Virus record (IMG/VR): IMGVR_UViG_3300030451_002041
Location: 1,735-41,179 of that record
DNA: 39,445 nt
DNA from: a virus
Strand: one strand, 5' to 3'
The position numbers and the translations under genes were made by a program. Position 1 is the stretch's first letter. The number at the start of each line of letters is the position of its first letter. The notes beneath the pieces are model-generated. The model was not told where the DNA came from. It made no database searches and saw only the letters and a list, made by a program, of their open reading frames with translations. Shown one piece after another: positions 5,947 to 35,471 of the stretch.

Positions 5947-6103
5947 ATGCACTATCTTGCCAAAGGTGACCACACTCTTTGCACTGCCACAGGCTTATTC
6001 GCTCACGCTTACCATCGAGATAGCGTGCTTGCAGCCTTCTTGGTATATGTTCGTGTAAGCAAGCCCTACACTTTACTTTGAGTTTGTCTAACAGTCTACC
6101 CAT
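5927..6103 (-). CDS. 58-residue zinc-ribbon protein
   Basis: A small basic protein starting at the ATG that overlaps the thermosome stop (ATGA at 6103-6100). It contains CRAC near residue 12 and CKEC near residue 41 spaced by a basic stretch (RRLQARYLDGKRER), ending GHLWQDSAFTRRAK. The two CxxC pairs make a zinc ribbon, typical of small DNA- or RNA-binding or transcription-accessory proteins. It is the last gene of the minus-strand helicase, exonuclease, thermosome operon. Its 3' end overlaps the convergent late microprotein by 20 bases. Confidence 0.6.
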   Translation of the reverse strand: MGRLLDKLKVKCRACLHEHIPRRLQARYLDGKRERISLWQCKECGHLWQDSAFTRRAK

Positions 6104-7578
6104 CACTCAGCACCTCTACGCCCGATGACATCATCAATGCGTAGGATGGCGCTAGTAACTTCAGTAGCCCCACTGATAGCACTGCGAATAAGCGATGTTG
6201 GTTCATATACTCCATTCATGAGAACAATACCTCCTTCATGCACATCAGGCCCATAGAACTCAGGCACTTCGTGACGCATAGCGAGTATTGTATCTAGTGG
6301 GTCATACCCTGCGTTTTCTGCAATAGTAGCAGGTATTACCTCAAGAGCATCAGCGAATGCTTCTATTGCCATTTGAGCACGCCCACCTATAGCAGTAGCA
6401 TTAGCACGCAGATGCATGGCTATGGCTAGGTAAGTAGAACCTCCACCAAAACGCATAGAGTCACCATTCTTGATAAGCGACACAACACCAAGAGCATCAT
6501 CGAATCCACGCTGTATCTCATCGAGTGTGGATTGAGTAGCACCAAACAGTATCAGCGTAGCCTCTTTTTCTTGTGAATGCATGAATAGATAGGATACATC
6601 GTTGTAAGTTTCTCTCTTGATGAACACTTTACCTGTAGTAGAGGTAGCATCAGGGAACATGTGTATCGGCGCACCTACTTCATTGGAGAGCCTTCTCATT
6701 GTGCTTTCAGGAACTCTTTGCACTAGAGATATACCTTGCTTGCGTAGATAGGCTATGGCTGTATCGTGAACACCGTCACGACACACTACAACATTAGCAC
6801 CACTACTGACTACAGCCTTCGCTGACGCTAACAACTTGTCTCTACTCATTGATTGAACTTGACTGTATGAGTTAGCATCAGTCACTTGCACTGATACATT
6901 ATTCGCCTCTTTACCTTCTGTCAAGCCACCGTTGAGTAGTAGAACTTCTACACCGTCATCACTAGCCCAGTTGTTGAACTCATCCCCTCCACCAATGAAG
7001 TCCTTGTTAAGAACTACACCACGGAACAGGTATGAATCAGATAAAGCCCCACCCGGTGCAGCGAGTGTTTTGACCTCACGAGCATCACCAACGGCTTCTA
7101 TGGTTTCTACACACAATTCAGCAACCTTATCCTCACATGCTTCTAACGATTTACCAGTAATGGCTGTCTTTGCTATCGCTAGTAAATCCCCACCTGCATC
7201 ATCCATACCTTCTAGGCACTCAATAGCCATATTTCTTGCTACAGAATATCCTTTGTTGACAACATTAGGATGTAAGCCCTTAGCAAATAAATTCTCGCTG
7301 TTGGCTAATAATTGACTAGCAAGCACTACTGTGCTTGTAGTTCCATCGTAAGCGTTAGATTCTTGCATCTTAGATACTTCTACTACCATTTTAGCAGCAG
7401 GGTGTGCTGTATCTACCTCTCGCAAGATAGTAGCGCCGTCATTGGTAACGATAACATTACCACCACCGTCTACCATCATCTTATCCATACCTAATGGCCC
7501 AAGGGTCGTTCTTACAGTTTCAGCGATTCGCTTTACTGCTTCTATATTCAGTCTTTGTGTTGTATTACTTTCAGTCAT
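6103..7578 (-). CDS. group II chaperonin (thermosome subunit)
   Basis: 491 residues, a clear thermosome/CCT-type ATP-dependent folding machine. Equatorial motifs: RTTLGPLGMDKMMVD (23-37), TNDGATIL (45-52), DGTTS with the nucleotide-binding Asp at 78. The intermediate-domain Asp region is present (FDDALGVVSLIKNG before GGGS), and the end shows ALEVIPATIAENAGYDPLD and ILRIDDVIGRR. It is shorter than cellular thermosomes (about 540-550) and lacks the Gly/Met-rich C-terminal tail; the Gly of the usual GDGTT motif is Tyr here. It probably forms its own ring or joins host rings to fold virion or replication proteins. ATG 7578 overlaps the exonuclease stop, so it is translated from the replication operon. 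Confidence 0.96.
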   Translation of the reverse strand: MTESNTTQRLNIEAVKRIAETVRTTLGPLGMDKMMVDGGGNVIVTNDGATILREVDTAHPAAKMVVEVSKMQESNAYDGTTSTVVLASQLLANSENLFAKGLHPNVVNKGYSVARNMAIECLEGMDDAGGDLLAIAKTAITGKSLEACEDKVAELCVETIEAVGDAREVKTLAAPGGALSDSYLFRGVVLNKDFIGGGDEFNNWASDDGVEVLLLNGGLTEGKEANNVSVQVTDANSYSQVQSMSRDKLLASAKAVVSSGANVVVCRDGVHDTAIAYLRKQGISLVQRVPESTMRRLSNEVGAPIHMFPDATSTTGKVFIKRETYNDVSYLFMHSQEKEATLILFGATQSTLDEIQRGFDDALGVVSLIKNGDSMRFGGGSTYLAIAMHLRANATAIGGRAQMAIEAFADALEVIPATIAENAGYDPLDTILAMRHEVPEFYGPDVHEGGIVLMNGVYEPTSLIRSAISGATEVTSAILRIDDVIGRRGAE

Positions 7579-8185
7579 TCCAATCTACCTCAATTTCAAC
7601 TATAGAGCCATCCTCCATATTTCGGCTCTTTACAATGCCGTTGTCTACACCATACTTGTATAGGTCGTAGGTCAACTGGCAATCTTTGAGGCAGTAGTCG
7701 GCTACCTCGAGATACTTACCTTCCCGCCATGCTGCGGGTGCGTCACTGCTTTGCATACTCTTTGATAGGTCGAGTGTGCTACGAGTGAGTGTGTCTAGTG
7801 TGGTGTGAACTTTACCAACAGCCAATGCTGCTTTATCAATGAGTATCTTGGTATCAATGATGCTATCACTCTTACCAATCAATTCACCAGCAGTCCAACA
7901 ATCTAGTGCTGCGTTTAAAACAGGTAAGTCAAATTTACGAATGTTGTGACCGAGTATCTTACCACCACTGTCTAAATGCTTCTGTAAGTGGTCACCAAGT
8001 GTGCGTGGGTGTAGAGGGTGAACGGTAGCATTGACCATTTCTATATCTTCTTTAGCAAATACATGACCATCATTACCATCCCATGTGGCTACGACAGTAG
8101 GCTCAAACAAAGAGTGTTTATCCCACCCGCCTATCTCCCAAGAGTAGTTACCAGTCTCTATGTCTAATGCCATTATCCCACTCAT
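7571..8185 (-). CDS. DEDD-family 3'-5' exonuclease (RNase H fold)
   Basis: 204 residues. The three exonuclease motifs are visible: Exo I ALDIETG (D8, E10), Exo II LGHNIRKFDLPVL (N81, D86) and Exo III VADYCLKDCQLTYDLY (Y164, D168), which makes it a DEDDy enzyme like the proofreading domain of family B polymerases and archaeal predicted RNase H-like nucleases. It would remove 3' nucleotides from DNA (or RNA) during replication or repair. The ATG has GAGGTG at suitable spacing. It lies 33 bases after the helicase gene and overlaps the thermosome by 8 bases, so all are one operon. Confidence 0.85.
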   Translation of the reverse strand: MSGIMALDIETGNYSWEIGGWDKHSLFEPTVVATWDGNDGHVFAKEDIEMVNATVHPLHPRTLGDHLQKHLDSGGKILGHNIRKFDLPVLNAALDCWTAGELIGKSDSIIDTKILIDKAALAVGKVHTTLDTLTRSTLDLSKSMQSSDAPAAWREGKYLEVADYCLKDCQLTYDLYKYGVDNGIVKSRNMEDGSIVEIEVDWND

Positions 8186-8218
8186 ATTACAGCCACCTCA
8201 CATCTAGTTTTTGAAACT

Positions 8219-9625
8219 TCACACATCAGCCTCTTTCAAACGAAGATAAACTACCTGTGCGTCTTTTGCCGCATCGAACAGGTGTGCGCCCCATTTAGTA
8301 AAACGATTAAATGCTGTGCCTCTAGTAATTTGTTCACTGAGACAATACTGTTTGATAACAGAAGCCTTCTTTCGCCACCCCTCACCTTTCTTGTCTAATT
8401 CAACAGGCGAGACTAAGTTGTAAGCAGCCTTCCAATTCTTAGCATGATTAGCCTTCTCGGTTTGCTTAGCGCCCACTTCTACTTCGCCCTCGAGCCATAG
8501 TATTAGATTCTTGAATAAGTCGTAAATGATTTCTTTAGCCATGTCTAAGTGGTCACCAGTGACCACCCACTTCTCATCCATCATGGCTATGTGAGTAGCA
8601 AGAATAACAGAATAGTTCTCCATAGCAGGAACGAATGATGATACCACATTCGCTATGGCGAAGTTTAAGTCATCTAGTAATGAATACAAATCCTCAACTA
8701 AATCGTAGGTGGCTGCATAGAAAGAATCATCAGCAGTAAACACTTCATGCATTACTGACTGAACTAAATCTTCTTGCTCCTCACGAGTCATACCATCCCA
8801 CTCAGCGAATCCAACTTCGGTTAAGTCTAGTATGCGGTCACGCAACCGCTTTTGTAGTCCTTCAAAATATTCAATGATTTCTTCGTATGACAACTTCTGT
8901 TTGGGAGTCTTAGTGAATGCTCTTTCCATACGCTTCATACTCACACCCATACGCCTATCCATATCCCAGTCAGACCAATACAATAGAACACGCTGAAAGA
9001 TACCCTTTGTCAAGACATACTCTTTGACACCCGCAGGAGGGTAGGTAGTAATCCACAGCGACACGAGAGATTCAGTTTCAATACGGCGACCACTCAAGTG
9101 TTTTACGAGTATGTTTGAGTTACTACCGATAGGGTTACACGCTGACTGTAGATACAGAACAGTCTCTTGCGAGTGTTTACCCGGGTTGAGAATGATACTA
9201 CCTTCATCGAAGTTCAATGCTTTTTGACCGGCTAGCATACCTTTTGTTTGAACGGCTACTTCTTCCTTCTTACCGTTCTCATCAACGATAACTTCCTTGG
9301 TAACACCTCCGATAAGACCCGCATCCGAACCCGAGGTATACATATCCTGTTCTAACCCACAATCTTTCAACACATCCCCTATGAATTCCCACGCTACAGA
9401 TTTACCAGTTCTTGAAGGTTGAATCCAAAACACATGCACACGAGGGTCAAGATGGCTAGCATCCCATGGAATACGAATGAAAGGCGCTGCTATTTGTCCT
9501 TGGATATAGAAGAAAGATAACATAGCAGGTATCTCATTGTCTATACTTGTTCTACTAAATCTATCTACATAGCCCTCGAAGAAGGGATATTTCTTTACCG
9601 CAAGGTAGTCTGTAACTTCTCTCAT
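8219..9625 (-). CDS. P-loop ATPase, candidate replicative helicase
   Basis: 468 residues. A Walker A loop is present but with the first Gly replaced: QPSRTGKS, Lys at about 75; a Walker B-type strand KALNFDEGS (D140, E141) follows, then an Asn/Ser-rich sensor-like region and basic residues (LSGRRIE). The arrangement suits a ring ATPase of the AAA+/DUF3987-like primase-helicase type. No MCM or DnaB helicase is seen elsewhere in the window, so this is the best candidate for the fork helicase. It is the first gene downstream of a strong promoter element, with GAGGT before the ATG. Exact family uncertain. Confidence 0.55.
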   Translation of the reverse strand: MREVTDYLAVKKYPFFEGYVDRFSRTSIDNEIPAMLSFFYIQGQIAAPFIRIPWDASHLDPRVHVFWIQPSRTGKSVAWEFIGDVLKDCGLEQDMYTSGSDAGLIGGVTKEVIVDENGKKEEVAVQTKGMLAGQKALNFDEGSIILNPGKHSQETVLYLQSACNPIGSNSNILVKHLSGRRIETESLVSLWITTYPPAGVKEYVLTKGIFQRVLLYWSDWDMDRRMGVSMKRMERAFTKTPKQKLSYEEIIEYFEGLQKRLRDRILDLTEVGFAEWDGMTREEQEDLVQSVMHEVFTADDSFYAATYDLVEDLYSLLDDLNFAIANVVSSFVPAMENYSVILATHIAMMDEKWVVTGDHLDMAKEIIYDLFKNLILWLEGEVEVGAKQTEKANHAKNWKAAYNLVSPVELDKKGEGWRKKASVIKQYCLSEQITRGTAFNRFTKWGAHLFDAAKDAQVVYLRLKEADV

Positions 9626-9642
9626 AACTCTACCTCTTTTAC

Positions 9643-9657
9643 TGCTTTATATACTAA
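9643..9657 (-). promoter_or_regulatory. early promoter (TATA element) of helicase-exonuclease-thermosome operon
   Basis: Minus-strand TTAGTATATAAAGCA. The centre of the TATATAAA box is about 24.5 bases upstream of the helicase ATG, which with usual archaeal spacing would give a leaderless or nearly leaderless message. Identical copies precede other operons. Confidence 0.85.
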
Positions 9658-9685
9658 CCCTGAACATTTGATTTACGATGCTGCT

Positions 9686-10396
9686 TTATAAACCCCGTCT
9701 ACGCCTAACATTTCTTTCAATATGAACAGGTGATTCGCTTGTTAAAGTCTCTACAATCAGTTGTCTTTTCTTATCACCTAAGCCCTTTACTTGTTTAAGC
9801 GACTCAGGAAAACACATCTCCTCTAGGCTACCGCATTTAGTAAGTAACCTTTCTGCTAGTTCAGCACCTACACCCGGTATGGTGAGTAACATATCCACCC
9901 TTACATCGTTAGTAGACACTCTCCTGATAGCATGAGCACCATGCTTACTAGCGGGCTTGTGTAACTTGTTGTGTAGTTTTGTGATGAACATGGCAGCCTC
10001 ACTAATGTTAGCAGTGAAGAAAACTTGGCACTCAAAGTCAGCCATGATTCTAGCGATAGTGCCAGTCAATTCATTCTGCACTCTACTGTGTGTTAGATTT
10101 CTACCTTGCTTCTTAGCGAATGCAACATACTTAGCGATAGAGCCATGGATGACTAGAAAGAAGCGCTCATAATTAGCATCCATGTTGTCGAGTTGCCTCC
10201 ACAAATGACCACTATGACTTGATTGAAATAAATCGGTAACACTTTTTGCTTCTACACACGCAGCACCTAATAGATAATCACCTACTACCAAAGGTTGTCT
10301 TACTACATTAAGCCCTTCCTTCTTAGCCCTTCGTTCTATAGATTCACAAAGAGCACCACGCTCATTAGAGTCAATGATTAAATCAGGCTTCACCAT
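9686..10396 (-). CDS. XPF/ERCC4-type structure-specific nuclease with helix-hairpin-helix tail
   Basis: 236 residues from ATG 10396, which has GGGTGA upstream; a longer frame starts at 10435 but would overlap the previous gene by 53 bases. Nuclease core: LIIDSNERGAL (D9, E12), VVGDYLLG (GDY 39-41) and CVEAKSVTDLFQS, the counterpart of the ERK-x3-D motif with the Arg changed to Ala. The C-terminus carries two helix-hairpin-helix units (TIPGVGAELAERLL and VKGLGDKKRQLIVETL). Such proteins cut branched or flap DNA, and would process forks or recombination intermediates. It closes the clamp-PolB-primase operon. Confidence 0.85.
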   Translation of the reverse strand: MVKPDLIIDSNERGALCESIERRAKKEGLNVVRQPLVVGDYLLGAACVEAKSVTDLFQSSHSGHLWRQLDNMDANYERFFLVIHGSIAKYVAFAKKQGRNLTHSRVQNELTGTIARIMADFECQVFFTANISEAAMFITKLHNKLHKPASKHGAHAIRRVSTNDVRVDMLLTIPGVGAELAERLLTKCGSLEEMCFPESLKQVKGLGDKKRQLIVETLTSESPVHIERNVRRRRGL

Positions 10397-10613
10397 TTTC
10401 TTCACCCTGACTTTTATGATGGTGACAATACCCATCTATTACTATCGCTTTACATCTTTTACCTGATTTAGAAATACCCTTACAGAAGTATTCTTCCGGT
10501 AAATTATCTCTATCACTTAAACATGATAAACAAACAGTGGTTGATTTTTTAACACGACAACCTAAACCTTTACCGCAAATAACACATTGTCGTGCATGTA
10601 TTGTATGTTTCAT
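10383..10613 (-). CDS. small double zinc-finger protein
   Basis: 76 residues with two cysteine clusters: CVICG and CLSCL in the N-terminal half, then a C-x8-C-x7-C-x2-H pattern (FCKGISKSGKRC and DGYCHHHKSQ), a motif common in small phage and archaeal-virus proteins. The ATG directly follows the primase stop with no gap, and its end overlaps the ERCC4 gene by 14 bases, so it is made with primase and nuclease. A DNA-binding accessory role is likely but not shown. Confidence 0.65.
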   Translation of the reverse strand: MKHTIHARQCVICGKGLGCRVKKSTTVCLSCLSDRDNLPEEYFCKGISKSGKRCKAIVIDGYCHHHKSQGEENGEA

Positions 10614-11717
10614 TTAATCACCTATACTACCGTCAAAATAACGGCACTTACCAAGACATAACCCATCGTATTCAAGTGTAGCGCATGACGCTGCTGAGTA
10701 TCCGTTATTACCAGCCCCACCGTAAACTATGTTTTCTACTTGTTCACGAGTAATTCTAGGGTTGTAGTCCACCCACCCTTGCTCTTCTATGATACGAATG
10801 ATTCTCTCCACATGACCTGCTTTTATCTCATTAGCAATAGCATCGGGAGGGAAGAACCAACGAAACCTAGCCGCTAAAAATGAGGCTAAATGGAATCTTG
10901 CTTTGTGTGTAGGGTTACCCTCACCTAGTGCTGACTGAGCCAAGCATGGTAATACTATGATATCACCAAGTGTAATGTCGGGTAAACCATCAACCTTCTC
11001 TACATGTTTTTTGAAAGGACTCTTACGCTGAGCCACAGTGATTTGTATGTTTGTCTGACCATGTTCTATGTATCCACTGATAGGCTCTTGTGCCTTCTCC
11101 ATTAACCCATCATGAGTCAAGTTTAGTATCGAGTCACTATCTAATGGTATGCTCCAACAACCTCTCTTGCTATTGTATGAGTTAGGAATGCGAATCATAC
11201 CCGATGTATCAAACGCTACAGTAGGGTCATTACATGATAGGTTCAGTTTCTTATGCCATGATGATATTAGTTTTCTACCACCCTCTTTTACTCTAGCAAC
11301 ACTGTAACCATCCGAAGGAGTGTGAATGTTCTTTAACGGAATCCAAAAATGAAAGCCACCACCACTAAACCAAACATAGTGCCTAACATCTTCGTGTAAC
11401 AAAAAACGATGTAGCCTTTTAACCTGTTCGTGCATGAACGCAAAGTCCACATCAGCACCACGCTGTTTGAAATCTTTACAATCAAAGTCCATAACGAAGT
11501 GACGGATGATGGGTGTATCGTAATCCACTCTATGGTTTCTAGGTGGCTTGGTCGCTCGGTATCCGTATGCTGTAAAGTAAACATTACCACTACCGTTCTT
11601 ACCTTTCCAGTATCGTTCTAACTCTTCCCAGTTTCTAACACAGTAACGCCCCCCTTGTTTTCCATTGGAGGCTATCTCTAATACCTCACGAGGGAAGTCA
11701 AGTGTGATAAAAGACAT
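10614..11717 (-). CDS. archaeo-eukaryotic primase (AEP), catalytic subunit-like
   Basis: 367 residues. The three AEP motifs are present in order: HFVMDFDCKD (D77, D79), WFSGGGFHFWIP (H123, the S-x-H type motif) and AFDTSGMIRIPNSYNSKRG (D170, with basic residues). The C-terminal end has a Cys cluster (SCATLEYDGLCLGKCRYF), recalling the cysteine-rich C-terminal domain of primase large subunits or a zinc/Fe-S module, so one polypeptide may combine both. It would make the primers for the PolB encoded upstream. One base separates it from the preceding gene. Confidence 0.85.
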   Translation of the reverse strand: MSFITLDFPREVLEIASNGKQGGRYCVRNWEELERYWKGKNGSGNVYFTAYGYRATKPPRNHRVDYDTPIIRHFVMDFDCKDFKQRGADVDFAFMHEQVKRLHRFLLHEDVRHYVWFSGGGFHFWIPLKNIHTPSDGYSVARVKEGGRKLISSWHKKLNLSCNDPTVAFDTSGMIRIPNSYNSKRGCWSIPLDSDSILNLTHDGLMEKAQEPISGYIEHGQTNIQITVAQRKSPFKKHVEKVDGLPDITLGDIIVLPCLAQSALGEGNPTHKARFHLASFLAARFRWFFPPDAIANEIKAGHVERIIRIIEEQGWVDYNPRITREQVENIVYGGAGNNGYSAASCATLEYDGLCLGKCRYFDGSIGD

Positions 11718-11718
11718 A

Positions 11719-11997
11719 TCAATCCCTACTCTCCAAGATATAGACCTGCTTCATTATTTCACTGACAATAGAATTGAATGTGTTTGATATGTTAGGGGAG
11801 GTTAACATTGATGGATGGATAGTTATGTAGAAGCACGATAGAGTTTCTTCGTTGCTAGGTTTGTTTGCCATAACAACGCTGATTCTCTTATGTTTACCAA
11901 CTCTCGCTAGCCGAACATTGAACTCAAGATTAGGCCACTTGACAGAAAGACCCAACCTAATAGTTTCACAAGCAACTTCCAAACCTTCTCTATCCAT
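11719..11997 (-). CDS. 92-residue protein of the replication operon, unknown
   Basis: It begins DREGLEVACETIRLGLSV, an amphipathic helix, followed by alternating strands (FNVRLARVGKHKRISVVMA, SCFYITIHPSML) and a final helix (SNTFNSIVSEIMKQVYIL), an alpha-beta-beta-alpha outline. No catalytic motif seen. It is tightly packed between the Cas4-like nuclease (4-base gap) and primase (1-base gap), with GAGGTGATG before the ATG, which argues for a role with them, perhaps as a primase partner. Confidence 0.6.
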   Translation of the reverse strand: MDREGLEVACETIRLGLSVKWPNLEFNVRLARVGKHKRISVVMANKPSNEETLSCFYITIHPSMLTSPNISNTFNSIVSEIMKQVYILESRD

Positions 11998-12001
11998 AAC
12001 A

Positions 12002-12973
12002 TCACCTCATGTCCTCCGGGTCAATTGCTAAGTCTCCCATCCAAGCAGGGCACATTTCCATAAAGTCGCAATACTCACACTTTCTTTCGTGGGCTTCAGC
12101 AGGGAAATCATCATTCAAGTGTGCGTCTACTACACGCCTGAGTCTATTCTCTACAGTCTTTGGGGCATAACGACCACCCGGGCCTTTTACACTTTCATAA
12201 TCCCACATTGGCCCGTCTCCTCCATTAATACCACCACCGGGGAACTGCCAACCCCAACCAACTACAGGTAGGTATTCTATGTGTGGGCTATGTTCTAACA
12301 TCATACGGTAGAACTGCATTTCAGCACGCATAGAAGAACGCTTACGACCACCCTTCTCTACCCACTTACCAGTCTTTAACTCCATCAAAATGATACCTGT
12401 ATGGTCTGCATCAATGAATATACGGTCAATAAAACCCTTCATGTGTATAGGAACTTCAGTCCCATCACTAGCAACTACTACTCTAGTAGCGTGAATCTCT
12501 ACCTCATTACCAACGGGTAGCCAGTCTCTTGCATTCTGACGCATGTGCATGAGTCTTTCAAATTGCCAGTCACTGTATTGATTCATTTGCGCTCTCTCAC
12601 CATAGATGTAAGGTGTAGGCGGGATAGGCATAGCCTTTCGTAATTCTTTCTTCGCCAACTCAGTATTACCATCAGCGATAAAACTCTCAACTTGAGGTAT
12701 TATCTCAGGCGCTTGCTTCCAAAACCATTCAACAGCATCGTGAACATTACTACCACGAACATGGTAGTCTCTTTCTTCACCACGCAAGCCCAGTATGTTT
12801 TGAAAGTAATACTGTTTAGGACAGAAATCAAATGTGCCTACTGATGACTTAGTGACACGCAGAATCTTGTCATCCATGTCAGGTGACCAGTTGTAGCAAG
12901 ACTTATCGTAAGATTCTAACAACTCAGGATACTGATACTCAGTATCATTCTTTTGATTCGGATTGAACCTCAT
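12002..12973 (-). CDS. Cas4/RecB-type PD-(D/E)XK nuclease with Fe-S cysteines
   Basis: 323 residues from ATG 12973, chosen because GGAGGT lies at good spacing; a TTG at 12988 would place the site inside the gene. Nuclease motifs: KSSVGTFDFCPKQYYFQ (first Cys, C51), HVRGSNVHDAVE (His 78), GFIDRIFID (D183), ILMELKTGKW (E198, K200) and QFYRMML. The end has CEYCDFMEMCP (C299, C302, C308), completing four cysteines for a 4Fe-4S cluster as in Cas4 and AddB. There is no CRISPR array or cas1/cas2 nearby, so it is more likely a replication or end-processing exonuclease of the virus. It overlaps the upstream gene by 29 bases. Confidence 0.88.
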   Translation of the reverse strand: MRFNPNQKNDTEYQYPELLESYDKSCYNWSPDMDDKILRVTKSSVGTFDFCPKQYYFQNILGLRGEERDYHVRGSNVHDAVEWFWKQAPEIIPQVESFIADGNTELAKKELRKAMPIPPTPYIYGERAQMNQYSDWQFERLMHMRQNARDWLPVGNEVEIHATRVVVASDGTEVPIHMKGFIDRIFIDADHTGIILMELKTGKWVEKGGRKRSSMRAEMQFYRMMLEHSPHIEYLPVVGWGWQFPGGGINGGDGPMWDYESVKGPGGRYAPKTVENRLRRVVDAHLNDDFPAEAHERKCEYCDFMEMCPAWMGDLAIDPEDMR

Positions 12974-29280: not shown

Positions 29281-29293
29281 CTTTATATACTAA
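29281..29293 (-). promoter_or_regulatory. early promoter of the 28839-28201 operon
   Basis: Minus-strand TTAGTATATAAAG, without the usual GCAGC tail (here AAACAAAAC follows). Box centre is 24.5 bases from GTG 29261 and 33.5 from ATG 29252. Confidence 0.8.
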
Positions 29294-29295
29294 AC

Positions 29296-30480
29296 TTATC
29301 TCCATTCATCTAGTATAGACTGTATATCATCTGCTTGTCTTTGCATGATTTCTTGCTTGCTTTGCTTCTTGCTTTTCTTCTTCTTAGCAGGGTAGTTCTT
29401 GGCTTTGTTCTTGCCTTTCTTCTTCCTCTCTTCCGCTTTGATGCGTGTCTTACGAATGCAATCGTGACAGTGATACATCTGTGTATCCATGTCAATGAAC
29501 TCAGGAAGCACAAACTTCTTACACTTACGACATTGAATCTTATCATCTTGAACTTTGGCTTTCCTGTTATCTTCTGTGTAACAACATAGACACACACCAT
29601 CTTTCATTTCAGCGAAGGTAGATATGGTATTGTCACACTTAGGACATATATCTGTCATGTTGTATAATCCATCTGTAGCCAACATCATGTCAGGGCAACC
29701 ACAACTGTCGCAGTGAAAGTCTTTCTTCAACTTAGAATCATCAGCATGAAGCCACTCATAATGGCCGCAGTCAGGACAAGAATATACATCCCAACTGTCA
29801 GGAAAGCCTTGCTCATCATCCCAGTCATCCTCCTCGAAGTAAATCTTAGGTGCGTTCTTGGGCTTGGGTTTGTCCTCTACAAAGTTGAACTTGTTACCTC
29901 CACTGAATGATTGGAATAGTGACTTACCCATAGGTATACCAAGAATGTCAGCAACATACTGTTGTTGTGACTTACCCTCGACAGCATGGTGACAGTAGAT
30001 GCTACGAACATACTCAATGAGAGAAGCAGCATCAGGTTGCTTGAGACACTCAGCATCACCCATGAGGTAACCAAGGATACACAACTGAACACCTGTCCTA
30101 CCATGACCACCGACACACTGTGTGGATACAGTCTTGATACCGAGACGCTTGATGTCGTCAACAAGGGCAACCCAAAACTCACGACCAACATCCTGTGGGA
30201 TGCTGAAGTCAGGCCAGTCAATACTAATGATGTGACTAGATGCCCCATCAACATGGTTGCCACAAGTAAAACCATCAGGCGCAACTGTTCGATTAGAACT
30301 TCTATCCATCACTTGAGCAGGGCCGATAGCGAGGTCAGGCGCAGGTGACATGACATGGTAACCACCGTTACGAGTGTGACCACCTGCATGTATTGCTACT
30401 CCGTCTACTGTAAACACAACAGGGTTGCCTGTGTGACAGTTTGCTTTACTTCCAAATCCATTCATCCAATTATTGTTCAT
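29296..30480 (-). CDS. protein-tyrosine/dual-specificity-phosphatase-like domain fused to zinc ribbons
   Basis: 394 residues from ATG 30480, which has GGAG at normal spacing (ATG 30489 is the alternative and would be too close). N-terminal part: a WPD loop SIDWPDFSIPQD and the phosphatase signature TQCVGGHGRTGVQL, i.e. C-x5-R-T-G with Cys about 122 and Arg about 128, preceded by Gln rather than the usual His. C-terminal part: several zinc ribbons (CPDCGHYEW, CDSCGCPD, CPKCDNT, CLCC, CRKCKK, CHDC) and a very basic tail (KKKGKNKAKNYPAKKKKSKK). It may be a phosphatase acting on nucleic-acid-bound or ribosome- or polymerase-bound targets. It overlaps the end of the PEP-synthase-like gene by 11 bases. 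Confidence 0.7.
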   Translation of the reverse strand: MNNNWMNGFGSKANCHTGNPVVFTVDGVAIHAGGHTRNGGYHVMSPAPDLAIGPAQVMDRSSNRTVAPDGFTCGNHVDGASSHIISIDWPDFSIPQDVGREFWVALVDDIKRLGIKTVSTQCVGGHGRTGVQLCILGYLMGDAECLKQPDAASLIEYVRSIYCHHAVEGKSQQQYVADILGIPMGKSLFQSFSGGNKFNFVEDKPKPKNAPKIYFEEDDWDDEQGFPDSWDVYSCPDCGHYEWLHADDSKLKKDFHCDSCGCPDMMLATDGLYNMTDICPKCDNTISTFAEMKDGVCLCCYTEDNRKAKVQDDKIQCRKCKKFVLPEFIDMDTQMYHCHDCIRKTRIKAEERKKKGKNKAKNYPAKKKKSKKQSKQEIMQRQADDIQSILDEWR

Positions 30481-32833
30481 CTTTTTCATCTCCTTTTATT
30501 TGTTTGAGGTAGTCCTCAATGTTGTCTTGCTTAGCAAGATACTTGCTCAACACCGCAGTCATCTCAGGAGTATCAGGGTCTGATGGGTCAATTGCCTCAT
30601 ACAGTTGTATGAACTCCTGTGCTGTGGGGAAGAACTCTTTTGCTTTGATAAGAGCAATCTGTTCTTTGACACTCGCTCTTGTCTCTTGTATCGAACCTAC
30701 CAACCATACATCAACAGGTGGTGGTGCAATCATTAAGTTTGCATTGTAGTCATCAAACAATGACTTCATCTTAATGAGTTGTGATTGTGTTAGTGCTGTT
30801 GGGTTCTCGGTAGCCCACTCAATGTGCTTAGCACACATCGAACAAGAAGCCACGCCACACATGATGAAGTCCTTGTTCATTGGGGAGTTGTGTGAGCCTC
30901 GGTCACCGTGTCTCCAACCAACAGGTAGAATCTCCATAACTTTTCTTAGTGACTCATGAACCTTAGTGCTTGTAGCGATAGGGTTCTTGCGCCAATACGA
31001 AGGAGTCTTGGTTAGCACAAAGTCAAGTATCTCACTCCAATTGTTTTCAGGTGAAGAGGCTGCTTCCATGGTATCTCTTGAGTCATTGTCTAAGAACTCA
31101 CGAGCCATTTGAAATACTGATGACATACTGTTCATGTCTCTACGAGGATTGAAACCTTCTGTGCCTACATCGAAGGCATACTTGCTCAACCACTTGTTGA
31201 ATAGGTGGCCGCCATTGTGCACAGCATTCTCGGCTACATTGACAACCTTGACAAGATTGGCAAGTGTATCTTCGTTAGCATTGTCAGTGAATGCTTGTAG
31301 TGCATCACACACTTCAGCGCCCTTCTGCATGGACTCACCCCACTTAGCACCACCGTATGATGATGACCAACCTGCTTGGAAGTGTTTGTCTAAGAAGCGA
31401 AGTAACTTTGCTGTGTCGCCCCAGTCAACCTTGATGTGAGAGATAGCAGCATAGTAGTGACCACGAGTAGAGTCTAGGTATGGAGTGTTAGTGATTTTCT
31501 TCCACACATTACTACCAACACAGGCAGTCATAGTAGCGAACAGTTCAGCGTTAGCATTTGACTTAAGACTACGAGCGTGTCTCATCTCACCAAGACCAAG
31601 CGCAAGCATAGCCTTGGGTAACCAAGCACAGAACATACCTGCTAGGTATGCTACATGTTGTGGTTTGCTCATCGGTAGGCTAACCCACTGATGGAAGAAA
31701 GTAGAGAACCATCCCTGTTGCTTACGCCAGTATGTATTACCATCATCAAGACCACGCCTGAAGTCATCAAGGTAAGCATAAGGAGCATACGGCTTAGGCT
31801 CAAATTTGTTGTCATTATCCATGACAACCCATCCGGCTGAAGCCTCAACCCAACGGTCACCTACAGTGACAGAAGGAGTGATAGCATAAGCAACACCTAC
31901 ACCACGACAGTGAGCGTAGATGTGTGAGAGTCGAGAACCACTCGGCTCGACTACCATGAAACCATCAGGACATTTCTCGGGAGTAATGTTCTCTTCAAGC
32001 CATGCAACTTCTTCAAGACCACTCATCACAACGAAGTCTTTGACAATCAACTCACCCTGTGGAATCATACCGATAGTATCTACACCTTCAGGTGGTGGGT
32101 TGACAGGAGTATGTGAAGGAGCACCACGAATCTGTGTGAGTCTGTGGCTCATCTTTGGTAAATCCAAAACACCACGGTCACGGTGGTCTTGTAGTTGTGT
32201 GAAAACAAACTCAAGTTCGTGGTGAGTAGGTGCATAAGATAGTGAATTCATAATCATGTTGTCTTTACTATATTCTTCTACACGAAGAGGAAATGCTAGA
32301 TTGAAACCATGTCCGGCTGTAATACCATCATGACCTACGCCCATGATATTGTAACCTTGGAACATCTTTGGTTTATCCATACCTGTCTCCTCATCGGGTA
32401 TCATTATAGTCAACCCATCTGCATCTACTTCAGGATGTGAGAGCGCCATAACACAAGACGCTGCTGCATCCACGAATGGCATAAGAATCATGCACCCATC
32501 AGGGTCATGCTCTTTCATAACGCCACTCAAGTATTCAAACTTCGATATCAAATCTTCTTCATCATCACACTTGATAGACTCAATCACACCGTGGCGTGGA
32601 GTCTCAGGGCAAGCCCGCAAGAAACATGGGTAACCCATGTGATTCCCTGCTGATACTACCTGTAACACATTGTCGCTGATATTGACCAATGCCATTTTTA
32701 GTGGATTCCAGTCTTTGGGTATTGCATACATCTCATGGGCTGAGCGATGTGTAAACAACGCTCTTGCCTTCTGCGATTTGATGCTCTTTATCCTATCTGA
32801 ACTATTCAATTCTGCTAATTCCATATATTCCAT
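30470..32833 (-). CDS. PEP-synthase-like protein with phosphohistidine (swivelling) domain
   Basis: 787 residues. The N-terminal 180 residues resemble the ATP-grasp part of PEP synthase/pyruvate phosphate dikinase: FLRACPETPRHGVIESI, ILMPFVDAAASCVMAL and MGVGHDGITAGHG. Residues about 250-340 look like the mobile phosphohistidine domain: PSGSRLSHIYAHCRGVGVAY (His 304 in an S-H pattern) then VTVGDRWVEASAGWVV. The C-terminal 450 residues are helical and unassigned, with a small Cys cluster (CGVASCSMC); the usual PEP-binding TIM barrel is not obvious. It may transfer phosphate from ATP via His to an unknown acceptor. ATG 32833 has AAGGAG upstream. First gene of a two-gene operon. Confidence 0.5.
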   Translation of the reverse strand: MEYMELAELNSSDRIKSIKSQKARALFTHRSAHEMYAIPKDWNPLKMALVNISDNVLQVVSAGNHMGYPCFLRACPETPRHGVIESIKCDDEEDLISKFEYLSGVMKEHDPDGCMILMPFVDAAASCVMALSHPEVDADGLTIMIPDEETGMDKPKMFQGYNIMGVGHDGITAGHGFNLAFPLRVEEYSKDNMIMNSLSYAPTHHELEFVFTQLQDHRDRGVLDLPKMSHRLTQIRGAPSHTPVNPPPEGVDTIGMIPQGELIVKDFVVMSGLEEVAWLEENITPEKCPDGFMVVEPSGSRLSHIYAHCRGVGVAYAITPSVTVGDRWVEASAGWVVMDNDNKFEPKPYAPYAYLDDFRRGLDDGNTYWRKQQGWFSTFFHQWVSLPMSKPQHVAYLAGMFCAWLPKAMLALGLGEMRHARSLKSNANAELFATMTACVGSNVWKKITNTPYLDSTRGHYYAAISHIKVDWGDTAKLLRFLDKHFQAGWSSSYGGAKWGESMQKGAEVCDALQAFTDNANEDTLANLVKVVNVAENAVHNGGHLFNKWLSKYAFDVGTEGFNPRRDMNSMSSVFQMAREFLDNDSRDTMEAASSPENNWSEILDFVLTKTPSYWRKNPIATSTKVHESLRKVMEILPVGWRHGDRGSHNSPMNKDFIMCGVASCSMCAKHIEWATENPTALTQSQLIKMKSLFDDYNANLMIAPPPVDVWLVGSIQETRASVKEQIALIKAKEFFPTAQEFIQLYEAIDPSDPDTPEMTAVLSKYLAKQDNIEDYLKQIKGDEKDEQ

Positions 32834-32868: not shown

Positions 32869-32883
32869 TGCTTTATATACTAA
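32869..32883 (-). promoter_or_regulatory. early promoter of PEP-synthase-like / phosphatase-like operon
   Basis: Minus-strand TTAGTATATAAAGCA; box centre about 42.5 bases before ATG 32833, the same long spacing as the 27835 copy. Confidence 0.85.
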
Positions 32884-34134: not shown

Positions 34135-34511
34135 TCAATCACCTTCTCGTAGCCTATTACTTCTTTAATGAGGGTATGTAACCAAGGGTCAAACGGTATG
34201 TTCTTTCCAATTAGTTCAAGTGTCTCAGTCAACCGCTTGACTTCCTCAAGGAGAAGTGGTGCGTCTGCCATCAGTATTTTGTTAGCCATCATTGTTGTGA
34301 ATTCTTCATCGGGGAAATCTTCACCCTCCGGTAACGAAGCCATAGTAGCAATCGGCACTTCTTCGTAGCCCGGTCTGCCGTAGTATAAGTGAGTGGAGGG
34401 GTCAGTAAAACTCTCACCATTGTAAAGGCACTTCCATATTTCTCGCCCTTCTATATTGTTGTAAGTCCAAGGCGCAGGTGTGTGTCCTTCGTATTTGTCT
34501 GTGTTAATCAT
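34131..34511 (-). CDS. phage-type HTPAPW / ADAPLLL protein
   Basis: 126 residues with the two hallmarks of a common phage accessory family: EGHTPAPWTYNN at the N-terminus and MMANKILMADAPLLLEEVKRL near the C-terminus ('A-N-x-x-L-x-A-x-A-P-x-L-L'). Function is unknown in the family. It lies between the ArdC-like gene and the 33817 gene with 4-base overlaps on both sides, so it belongs to an accessory or anti-host module. Confidence 0.65.
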   Translation of the reverse strand: MINTDKYEGHTPAPWTYNNIEGREIWKCLYNGESFTDPSTHLYYGRPGYEEVPIATMASLPEGEDFPDEEFTTMMANKILMADAPLLLEEVKRLTETLELIGKNIPFDPWLHTLIKEVIGYEKVIE

Positions 34512-35458
34512 GCTATCACCTCTTCAAGTATGGAACAGTTAGCAAGAACGAAGTCTGCTGCTGCCTGTGCTTGACTGAACGCTCTATCAAGTGCGCTGTC
34601 TTGCTCATCACAAGCCTTCAACCAATGTTTCAGGTATGCTTGAGAGTTAGCGTGCTCTTCCTGTAACTCATGAGGATTAAACTCACCGCCTAGTGATAGG
34701 GTGAGGATAAGTGAACCTAATTCAGCAACTAATTCCTCGAAGGCATACTCAGCACTACCAAACTTATTGGCTAGGTTGCGCTCACACCTCTTTGGATGAC
34801 CTGTGCTGTGGATAGCCTCATGCATAGATGTAGCAACTTCAGCCAAAGGAGTCTCAAAGTCCTCGGTCTTTGGTAGTTGAATCAGGTCGCCACTTAATCT
34901 ATAGAACGCTTGATTGCCCTGCCTTTTCAGGTCAATACCTTGAGTCTCTACGAATGCGTTAAAGTGTTTCATCATATCCGATTGGGAAGTGACTATCATG
35001 GTTTCAGGCGAGGTCTTAGGTGCTTCGTAGTCCTCGCATTGTTCCACGCAAAAGACCTCCCACCAATTAGTGATGTAGCCTGTGCGTGTAACTTCTTCGT
35101 CAGTCTTTTTGTCCTTAGTGGTGTAGGTGGATTGTTTGAAAAACTTAACCAAACAACCTTCGCCATTCTTCAATCCCTTGATACTCATACCTAACTTCTT
35201 CAGTTGGTTGCGTGTGCCGAATCTCATATCAGTGTAACCATTACCCATAGCCCAAAACCATAGTGATACTATGTTACCACCTTTGTAGTGTTTCTTACTC
35301 ACGACATTCATAGGCATGACTGAACCGCCTTTCCACTGCTTGCGCCATGGAACATTGTTTGATTCCATGCCCGCCTTTAGGTTCTCATACCATGCTACCT
35401 TATTGGCAGCCTTCTTCTGTTTCATGTATTCTTTCTTTTCTGCTTTACTCCAAGTCAT
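34508..35458 (-). CDS. ardC: ArdC-type anti-restriction protein (ssDNA-binding domain plus zincin)
   Basis: 316 residues from ATG 35458 (GGAG 8 bases upstream); GTG 35467 is at leaderless distance from the promoter and is the alternative. The N-terminal half matches the ArdC N-terminal domain (MESNNVPWRKQWKGG; NIVSLWFWAMGNGYTD; RFGTRNQLKKLG). The C-terminal half has the metallopeptidase motif SMHEAIHSTGHP (HExxH about 213-217) and the downstream FEELVAELG with the third ligand Glu. ArdC proteins coat incoming single-stranded DNA and protect against restriction; here it would guard the viral genome or attack a host factor. It carries repeat copy C. Confidence 0.88.
   Translation of the reverse strand: MTWSKAEKKEYMKQKKAANKVAWYENLKAGMESNNVPWRKQWKGGSVMPMNVVSKKHYKGGNIVSLWFWAMGNGYTDMRFGTRNQLKKLGMSIKGLKNGEGCLVKFFKQSTYTTKDKKTDEEVTRTGYITNWWEVFCVEQCEDYEAPKTSPETMIVTSQSDMMKHFNAFVETQGIDLKRQGNQAFYRLSGDLIQLPKTEDFETPLAEVATSMHEAIHSTGHPKRCERNLANKFGSAEYAFEELVAELGSLILTLSLGGEFNPHELQEEHANSQAYLKHWLKACDEQDSALDRAFSQAQAAADFVLANCSILEEVIA
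34991..35011 (+). repeat. 21-bp direct repeat, copy C
   Basis: GACTATCATGGTTTC followed by AGGCGA, inside the ArdC-like gene, where the minus strand encodes ETMIV; in RFC the same bases encode RNHDS in another frame. Confidence 0.6.
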
Positions 35459-35471
35459 TTCTATCACTCCT

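Follow-up and report, generated by a model that had tools for sequence, protein, structure and literature searches.

In a 39,445-nt stretch of the virus record IMGVR_UViG_3300030451_002041 (positions 1,735 to 41,179; the window), two overlapping minus-strand genes, A and B, encode what we on balance take to be an undescribed and widespread phage phosphorylation system, composed of a swivel-histidine dikinase, an acceptor module of putatively new fold, termed here HNNG for the motif HNNGxIFNK that it contains, and an obligate Cys phosphatase. Such a system would make and unmake a phosphorylated metabolite, nucleotide or protein in infection, and would have been hidden under a glycolytic label. 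The first-pass annotation of this DNA, which placed both open reading frames correctly on the minus strand, had paired a phosphohistidine protein with a phosphatase; the pairing is genuine, but the third module, which is the C-terminal half of gene A, was overlooked. The two genes and their domains, with PTP and DSP denoting protein tyrosine and dual-specificity phosphatases, PPDK pyruvate phosphate dikinase and RPH rifampin phosphotransferase, are as follows.

30470..32833, minus strand: gene A, 787 amino acids, a compact ATP-grasp, swivel phosphohistidine and HNNG helical-domain protein
32114..32833, minus strand: ATP-grasp domain of gene A, approximately residues 1-240, with K22, R73, E208, Q234 and R236 matching nucleotide-site residues of PPDK and RPH
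31799..32074, minus strand: swivel phosphohistidine domain of gene A, approximately residues 254-345, GSRLSHIYAHCRGVGV, recognized by a weak colinear hhalign match, the alignment to 2ols and PF00391 in relatives
31922..31924, minus strand: codon of His304, the predicted phosphate carrier
31154..31663, minus strand: HNNG domain of gene A, approximately residues 391-560, with the motifs GExRH ... SSxYGGxxW ... HNxG...NK
29296..30489, minus strand: gene B, 397 amino acids, a PTP/DSP-type phosphatase with zinc ribbons and a Lys-rich tail
29920..30432, minus strand: phosphatase domain of gene B, approximately residues 20-190, with DWPD at 91-94 and CVGGHGRTG from Cys125
29458..29778, minus strand: three zinc ribbons of gene B, equal to six CxxC pairs, residues 238-344, recognized by sequence motifs

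The assignment of gene A to the swivel-phosphohistidine dikinase superfamily, which includes PPDK, phosphoenolpyruvate (PEP) synthase and RPH, is well supported as enzyme homology. Gene A itself had no match in Pfam (E ≤ 1), NCBIfam, PADLOC or PDB sequences, and its PHROG match was at chance level only. The active-site residues are intact throughout its family: K22, R73, E208, Q234 and R236 were invariant in 49/49 distinct members at identities down to ~20%, following the PPDK and RPH residues in order and context, and H304 was kept in all 48 gapless sequences. Lys22 and Arg117 are required for the resistance activity of RPH (PMC4844700), and R73 of gene A would, as judged from its motif, be the equivalent of Arg117. 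At the His motif, the swivel-domain model PF00391 matched gene-A family members from G003 and G004 with E-values of 6e-3 to 6e-4, below the cut-off, and among these members the second gene-A copy of a 108.6-kb phage carries the textbook His signature DGSPTSHVAMQAKCHGVPAV.

Structure comparison pointed the same way. With the AlphaFold2 model of gene A as a query, the best Foldseek match was RPH (5hv1, E 3.2e-3, 784 columns), accompanied by numerous ATP-grasp enzymes at a probability near 1.0. A second aligner returned ATP-grasp folds up to Z 10.7, including PEP synthase 2ols (Z 9.4, 258 aligned residues, root-mean-square deviation 7.8), RPH 5hv1 (Z 9.2, 176 aligned, deviation 4.1), HpeI 9goj (Z 8.7, 193 aligned, deviation 5.3, the match lying in the ATP-grasp domain of gene A) and PPDK 5lu4 (Z 8.7, 178 aligned, deviation 4.3). 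The search of BFVD structures gave weak ATP-grasp matches only. The alignment to 2ols extends over residues 9-342 of gene A and thus includes the swivel domain, whose absence from a predicted structure had been named beforehand as a refuting outcome; together with the 49 family members and the sub-threshold PF00391 matches in relatives, it bears out the earlier recognition of the ATP-grasp domain, the swivel domain and His304. A family-profile match of the helical part to the SH3-domain protein 4nqi (E 8e-4) was taken as chance similarity between helical stretches.

In other phages, separate HNNG proteins share homology with the C-terminal half of gene A (hhalign E 5e-9, and 3e-11 with larger alignments). 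These proteins, labeled hypothetical, are roughly 330-480 amino acids in length and are encoded between PPDK and phosphatase genes. The motifs ExRH, GGxxW and HNxG..NK are near-invariant in the fused and split forms, and a large number of polar positions in HNNG (R,E,R,H,D,H,N,N,K,D,Q) are invariant. The structural model of one separate HNNG protein (L074, 70 sequences) reached a mean pLDDT of 93.8 and pTM of 0.87 and consists nearly entirely of helices. Comparison of this model with the PDB gave no match (best Foldseek E 0.98; best second-aligner Z 3.9), a result that suggests a new fold without proving it, and the HNNG family profile found no PDB sequence either (best E 0.78). The search of plasmids returned no HNNG. 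The module probably holds the acceptor, mainly because it is fused to the swivel domain at the place where the PEP barrel would sit. Two tandem large HNNG-like proteins are encoded at 7338-12283 of the LR756511.1 locus (L118), and one of them also matches the SPT5 KOW profile.

The PEP/pyruvate barrel of ordinary PPDKs is not recognizable in gene A, as the first-pass annotation had remarked: the swivel domain is followed by the helical HNNG domain instead, and the lack of any Pfam match at the above threshold includes the PF02896 barrel. In other phages that domain is a separate protein, and the accompanying "PPDK" appears to be barrel-less as well. The Pfam matches of these split PPDKs are limited to PPDK_N and the mobile domain; the PPDK of phage J26 lacks PF02896 (PEP_utilizers_C) even at E ≤ 10, and aligns to PDB PPDK chains only up to residue 513-540 of 691, which, on sequence grounds, argues for a missing barrel. 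The catalytic residues K,R,E,Q,R,H are invariant in 63/63 split PPDKs. These proteins also resemble the prodigiosin ligases PigC and RedH (NCBIfam), which likewise contain ATP-grasp and swivel domains.

These data bear directly on the published interpretation, in which the phage PPDK, as an auxiliary metabolic gene of glycolysis, interconverts pyruvate and PEP and has no connection with the adjoining phosphatase. This view draws on annotation, on the papers describing J26 and Virtus, and on a genuine PPDK similarity to approximately residue 515-540. In the J26 paper the PPDK was called glycolytic, with full overlap with 1GGO stated for residues 1-527 only and the barrel assigned from a model (PMC12038007), and PPDK genes near PTP genes were listed as separate auxiliary genes in such phages (PMC12038007, PMC9229204, PMC7326821). 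We doubt the glycolytic label because the barrel appears to be missing; moreover, an unrelated domain occupies its place in gene A, and the linkage to HNNG and the phosphatase described below is too strict for an unrelated neighbor. We therefore give this interpretation very little credence.

In the mechanism that we favor, the ATP-grasp domain of gene A would transfer phosphate from ATP to His304 with release of AMP and Pi. The swivel domain would then turn, and His304 would pass the phosphate on to an acceptor held in HNNG, which would stand in place of the PEP/pyruvate barrel of PPDK. Gene B, plausibly expressed from the same transcript, would either remove the phosphate from the product or use its Cys in a second step. 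In larger phages the same machine would be distributed over a PPDK lacking the barrel, a free-standing HNNG protein and one or two phosphatases. We judge this reading, in which gene A is an ATP-dependent swivel-phosphohistidine dikinase of the RPH/HpeHI kind with an HNNG-held acceptor and gene B acts on the product, to be slightly on the probable side. A small molecule or nucleotide is the likelier acceptor, rather than a protein, because the characterized members with non-PEP acceptors that were reviewed here, RPH and HpeHI, phosphorylate small molecules.

Two known enzymes, RPH (PMC4844700) and HpeHI, a two-component dikinase (PMC12167813), demonstrate that dikinases of this kind take non-PEP acceptors and can be split. 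RPH (5hv1, PMC4844700) resembles gene A in combining an ATP-grasp domain, a swivel His and a non-PEP acceptor domain; however, its order is ATP-grasp, acceptor domain and C-terminal His, whereas in gene A the His is central and is followed by HNNG. The RPH acceptor domain has no recognizable similarity to HNNG, and the RIF_Ptrans_rph model, with its RIF-binding domain preceding the C-terminal His, did not match gene A. HpeHI (9goj, PMC12167813) resembles the form found in larger phages, since it is a dikinase on two polypeptides, but HpeH joins the swivel and acceptor domains, whereas the split phage form keeps the swivel with the ATP-grasp part; HpeHI is also a catabolic bacterial enzyme, unlike the phage system. 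PPDK and PEP synthase share with the phage enzymes the ATP-grasp and swivel domains and the catalytic residues, and differ by their PEP/pyruvate TIM barrel, which was not detected in the split PPDKs of phages and whose place in gene A is taken by HNNG. RPH is not known to have a dedicated phosphatase, nor HpeHI a linked PTP. The combination of a phosphohistidine dikinase with an opposing phosphatase of dual-specificity type, as proposed here, is represented by GWD (PMC7569903) with SEX4/laforin. These proteins are eukaryotic and encoded by unlinked genes, and have carbohydrate-binding domains and another domain order; the only sequence link to the glucan dikinase system was PF22973, matched weakly (E 0.06) in a single phage. 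None of the PADLOC-DB anti-phage defense families was matched by the six proteins searched.

Gene B and its relatives supply the phosphatase component. Gene B matched phrog_17568 (E 1.2e-11) and, weakly, protein tyrosine phosphatases. It had no PTP match in Pfam (protein P0002); among its relatives, PTP-SAK or Tc-R-P scored close to the cut-off (L024, 30.5 bits, and J26, 39.5 bits, versus 27 bits). The Cys-x5-Arg signature was present in 43/43 distinct downstream phosphatases of the fused form, with a DWPD or WPD-like Asp in most of them, and the loop His (CxGGHGRTG) was found in nearly all B-type and fused-partner phosphatases. A tree of 159 phosphatases, built by a quick method, separated the upstream (A), downstream (B) and fused-partner types into three groups. 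The name "thymidylate synthase" attached to phrog_17568 was rejected as wrong, its members here being these phosphatases. The same name on this tyrosine-phosphatase-like family, also seen in GenBank for DLP3_141, DLP5 and SIO-2, was probably propagated.

The WPD loop, the C-x5-R signature, the zinc ribbons and the Lys-rich tail (20 Lys/Arg among the last 60 residues) that had been noted in gene B are all present. The ribbons, however, are a local addition and not a general feature of the family, as 24/43 distinct downstream phosphatases contain no CxxC pair after the catalytic loop. The earlier suggestion of a nucleic-acid-bound target rested on ribbons and tail, features absent from most relatives. 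A broader form of the same idea is a protein writer and eraser, in which the dikinase would phosphorylate a host or phage protein, possibly HNNG itself, and the phosphatase would reverse this on a timer. PTP/DSP folds act mostly on phosphoproteins, the two genes are adjacent in all lineages, and ribbons with a Lys tail could dock to nucleic acid-bound proteins in the window lineage. Against these points stand the small-molecule substrates of the non-PEP-acceptor swivel dikinases reviewed here (PMC4844700, PMC12167813), the phosphatases that lack ribbons, and the invariant polar residues of HNNG, which look more like a binding pocket than like a single modified residue, and we regard a protein target as unlikely, though deserving of attention.

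The components are in near-absolute linkage. The first tblastn matches were weak: gene A detected a 569-amino-acid gene overlapping an annotated dual-specificity phosphatase in podovirus MW202742, and the matches of gene B, in Vibrio, Stenotrophomonas, Rhizobium and Rhodobacter phages, fell within operons that also carry a gene annotated as pyruvate phosphate dikinase. Those 80-100 kb phages carry the split form, with a barrel-less PPDK, an HNNG gene and one or two phosphatases, and the "PPDK" genes of J26, Virtus, DLP3 and their relatives belong to it; they were published as separate auxiliary or miscellaneous genes, with the HNNG gene called a hypothetical or membrane protein. Because the linkage scans started from gene A or HNNG alone, the phosphatase counts involve no circularity. 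The fused form was found at 51 loci plus the podovirus, and a phosphatase followed in 50/50 loci with sequence beyond gene A, mostly overlapping or touching it and in a few cases lying within ~700 bases. Among 80 split loci, the PPDK was upstream of HNNG in 74 and a phosphatase downstream in 78, the remaining six and two being cut by the contig edge (hence 74/74 and 78/78 with room), and 75 contained a second, upstream phosphatase. Some Vibrio phages (J26 and LV6) retained only the upstream phosphatase. Six matches in the bacterial genome collection showed the same cassette, and comparison of hit lists from the phage collection placed HNNG or the fused gene in 41/41 records that encode a protein related to the DLP3 phosphatase. 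The genomic surroundings of the fused form differ from those of the split form. Phage G004 (IMGVR_UViG_3300005077_000007) encodes two gene-A relatives (75204-77075 and 84102-86291; loci L131 and L130), the second of which is divergent from two tandem phosphatase genes. The adjacency that the first-pass annotation had proposed to survey therefore recurs: a tyrosine/dual-specificity-type phosphatase is almost always paired with a barrel-less phosphohistidine ATP-grasp protein.

Several PPDK matches were set aside: gp139 of Bacillus phage G (365 amino acids) is without recognized cassette neighbors, plasmid PPDKs have the appearance of normal bacterial enzymes, and Listeria, Enterococcus and faecal "phage" matches came from bacterial-looking, poorly filtered records and were not counted.

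Gene packing and neighborhood bear on two further alternatives. The phosphatase might regulate the dikinase itself by dephosphorylating His304 or a regulatory residue, which would fit the close packing of the genes (a median gap of 1 base between HNNG and the downstream phosphatase in the split form and mostly short overlaps in the fused form). Most split loci, however, have two different phosphatases of the A and B types, more than such regulation needs, and Cys-based phosphatases are not known as phosphohistidine phosphatases of dikinases, making this explanation highly improbable. Alternatively, the pair could perform a two-step chemistry, in which the hydroxyl of a nucleotide, DNA base or other metabolite is activated by phosphorylation and the PTP-fold enzyme finishes by removing or transferring the phosphate, as part of a phage modification pathway. 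The split cassette immediately precedes the DNA polymerase I gene, and its PPDK resembles the PigC/RedH ligases; yet the position beside polA may reflect conserved gene order only, no other base-modification gene was recognized beside the cassette in the loci read, and the conserved neighbor families, except a CsrA-like one, had no informative Pfam match. We consider this chemistry rather improbable.

As to those neighbors, most split cassettes encode one or two small CsrA-like proteins between the PPDK and the phosphatase (L083, 2811-3128, and relatives; L116, 6575-7057); one matched PF02599 (E 0.0018), and they may be RNA-binding regulators of the cassette. The gene after HNNG in J26 (L116, 8651-9505) is annotated as a pyruvate decarboxylase and had no Pfam match, the corresponding gene in PG28 and LV6 is called a transporter, and split cassettes have a conserved family of ~290 amino acids (f5) at this place.

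The favored dikinase-acceptor-phosphatase reading has to be weighed against several less favorable results. The gene-A model, built from 17 sequences, is of moderate quality (mean pLDDT 63.8, pTM 0.48), and its Foldseek E-values are marginal. Alignment of the N-terminal half of gene A with phage PPDKs by hhalign gave nothing useful with a small alignment, and with larger alignments gave a colinear match that by itself fell short of significance (E 0.01, probability 4%). The split-form counts are not independent and partly represent one lineage's fixed gene order, because the position of the cassette, ahead of polA and portal, is fixed. Finally, the 595-kb phage LR756511 encodes two HNNG-like proteins with no swivel, PPDK or phosphatase profile match in its genome, the sole exception to the linkage.

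Within the window, genes A and B plausibly form one transcription unit. Their overlap is 20 bases if gene B starts at its first ATG (30489), and the 11 bases reported earlier if it starts at the in-frame ATG at 30480, three codons on. The promoter-like motif TTAGTATATAAAG occurs in 14 copies in the window with ≤2 mismatches versus 1.55 expected, and 14 copies were reached in 0/100 shuffles. Two copies flank the pair.

32871..32883, minus strand: TTAGTATATAAAG promoter-like motif in front of gene A
29281..29293, minus strand: next copy of TTAGTATATAAAG, behind gene B, at the start of the following unit

A common unit is suggested because the motif stands before gene A and again after gene B and the scan of the window found no copy between the two genes, in agreement with the single promoter initially proposed. 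The motif is phage-wide, usually followed by CAGCA and mostly located a few tens of bases 5′ of a gene start; its minus-strand sites include 9645, 20120, 23000, 24109, 27837, 28150, 29281, 32871, 33796, 35486 and 36374. Elsewhere on the minus strand, the window encodes an ArdC-type anti-restriction protein with a zincin-like peptidase domain (34508-35467), a SNF2-type helicase (36390-38981) and a protein matching phrog_5725, a phage family named chaperonin GroEL (6103-7578, E 5e-40).

The enzyme class itself is already known; the combination, the acceptor module and the phage-wide pairing are undescribed in the papers searched, which did not include the 2023 survey of the rhodanese-phosphatase superfamily, where a mention is possible. 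If the proposal is correct, the published view that PPDK boosts glycolysis would be replaced by a testable, dedicated kinase-acceptor-phosphatase machine, retained as a set by phages whose genomes differ widely in type. The structure of HNNG with its ligand would probably reveal an unfamiliar fold and a chemistry that the phage needs, and the presence of the split form in the cultured phages DLP3, DLP5, J26, PG28, SIO-2 and RcZahn makes the system open to knock-outs and assays.

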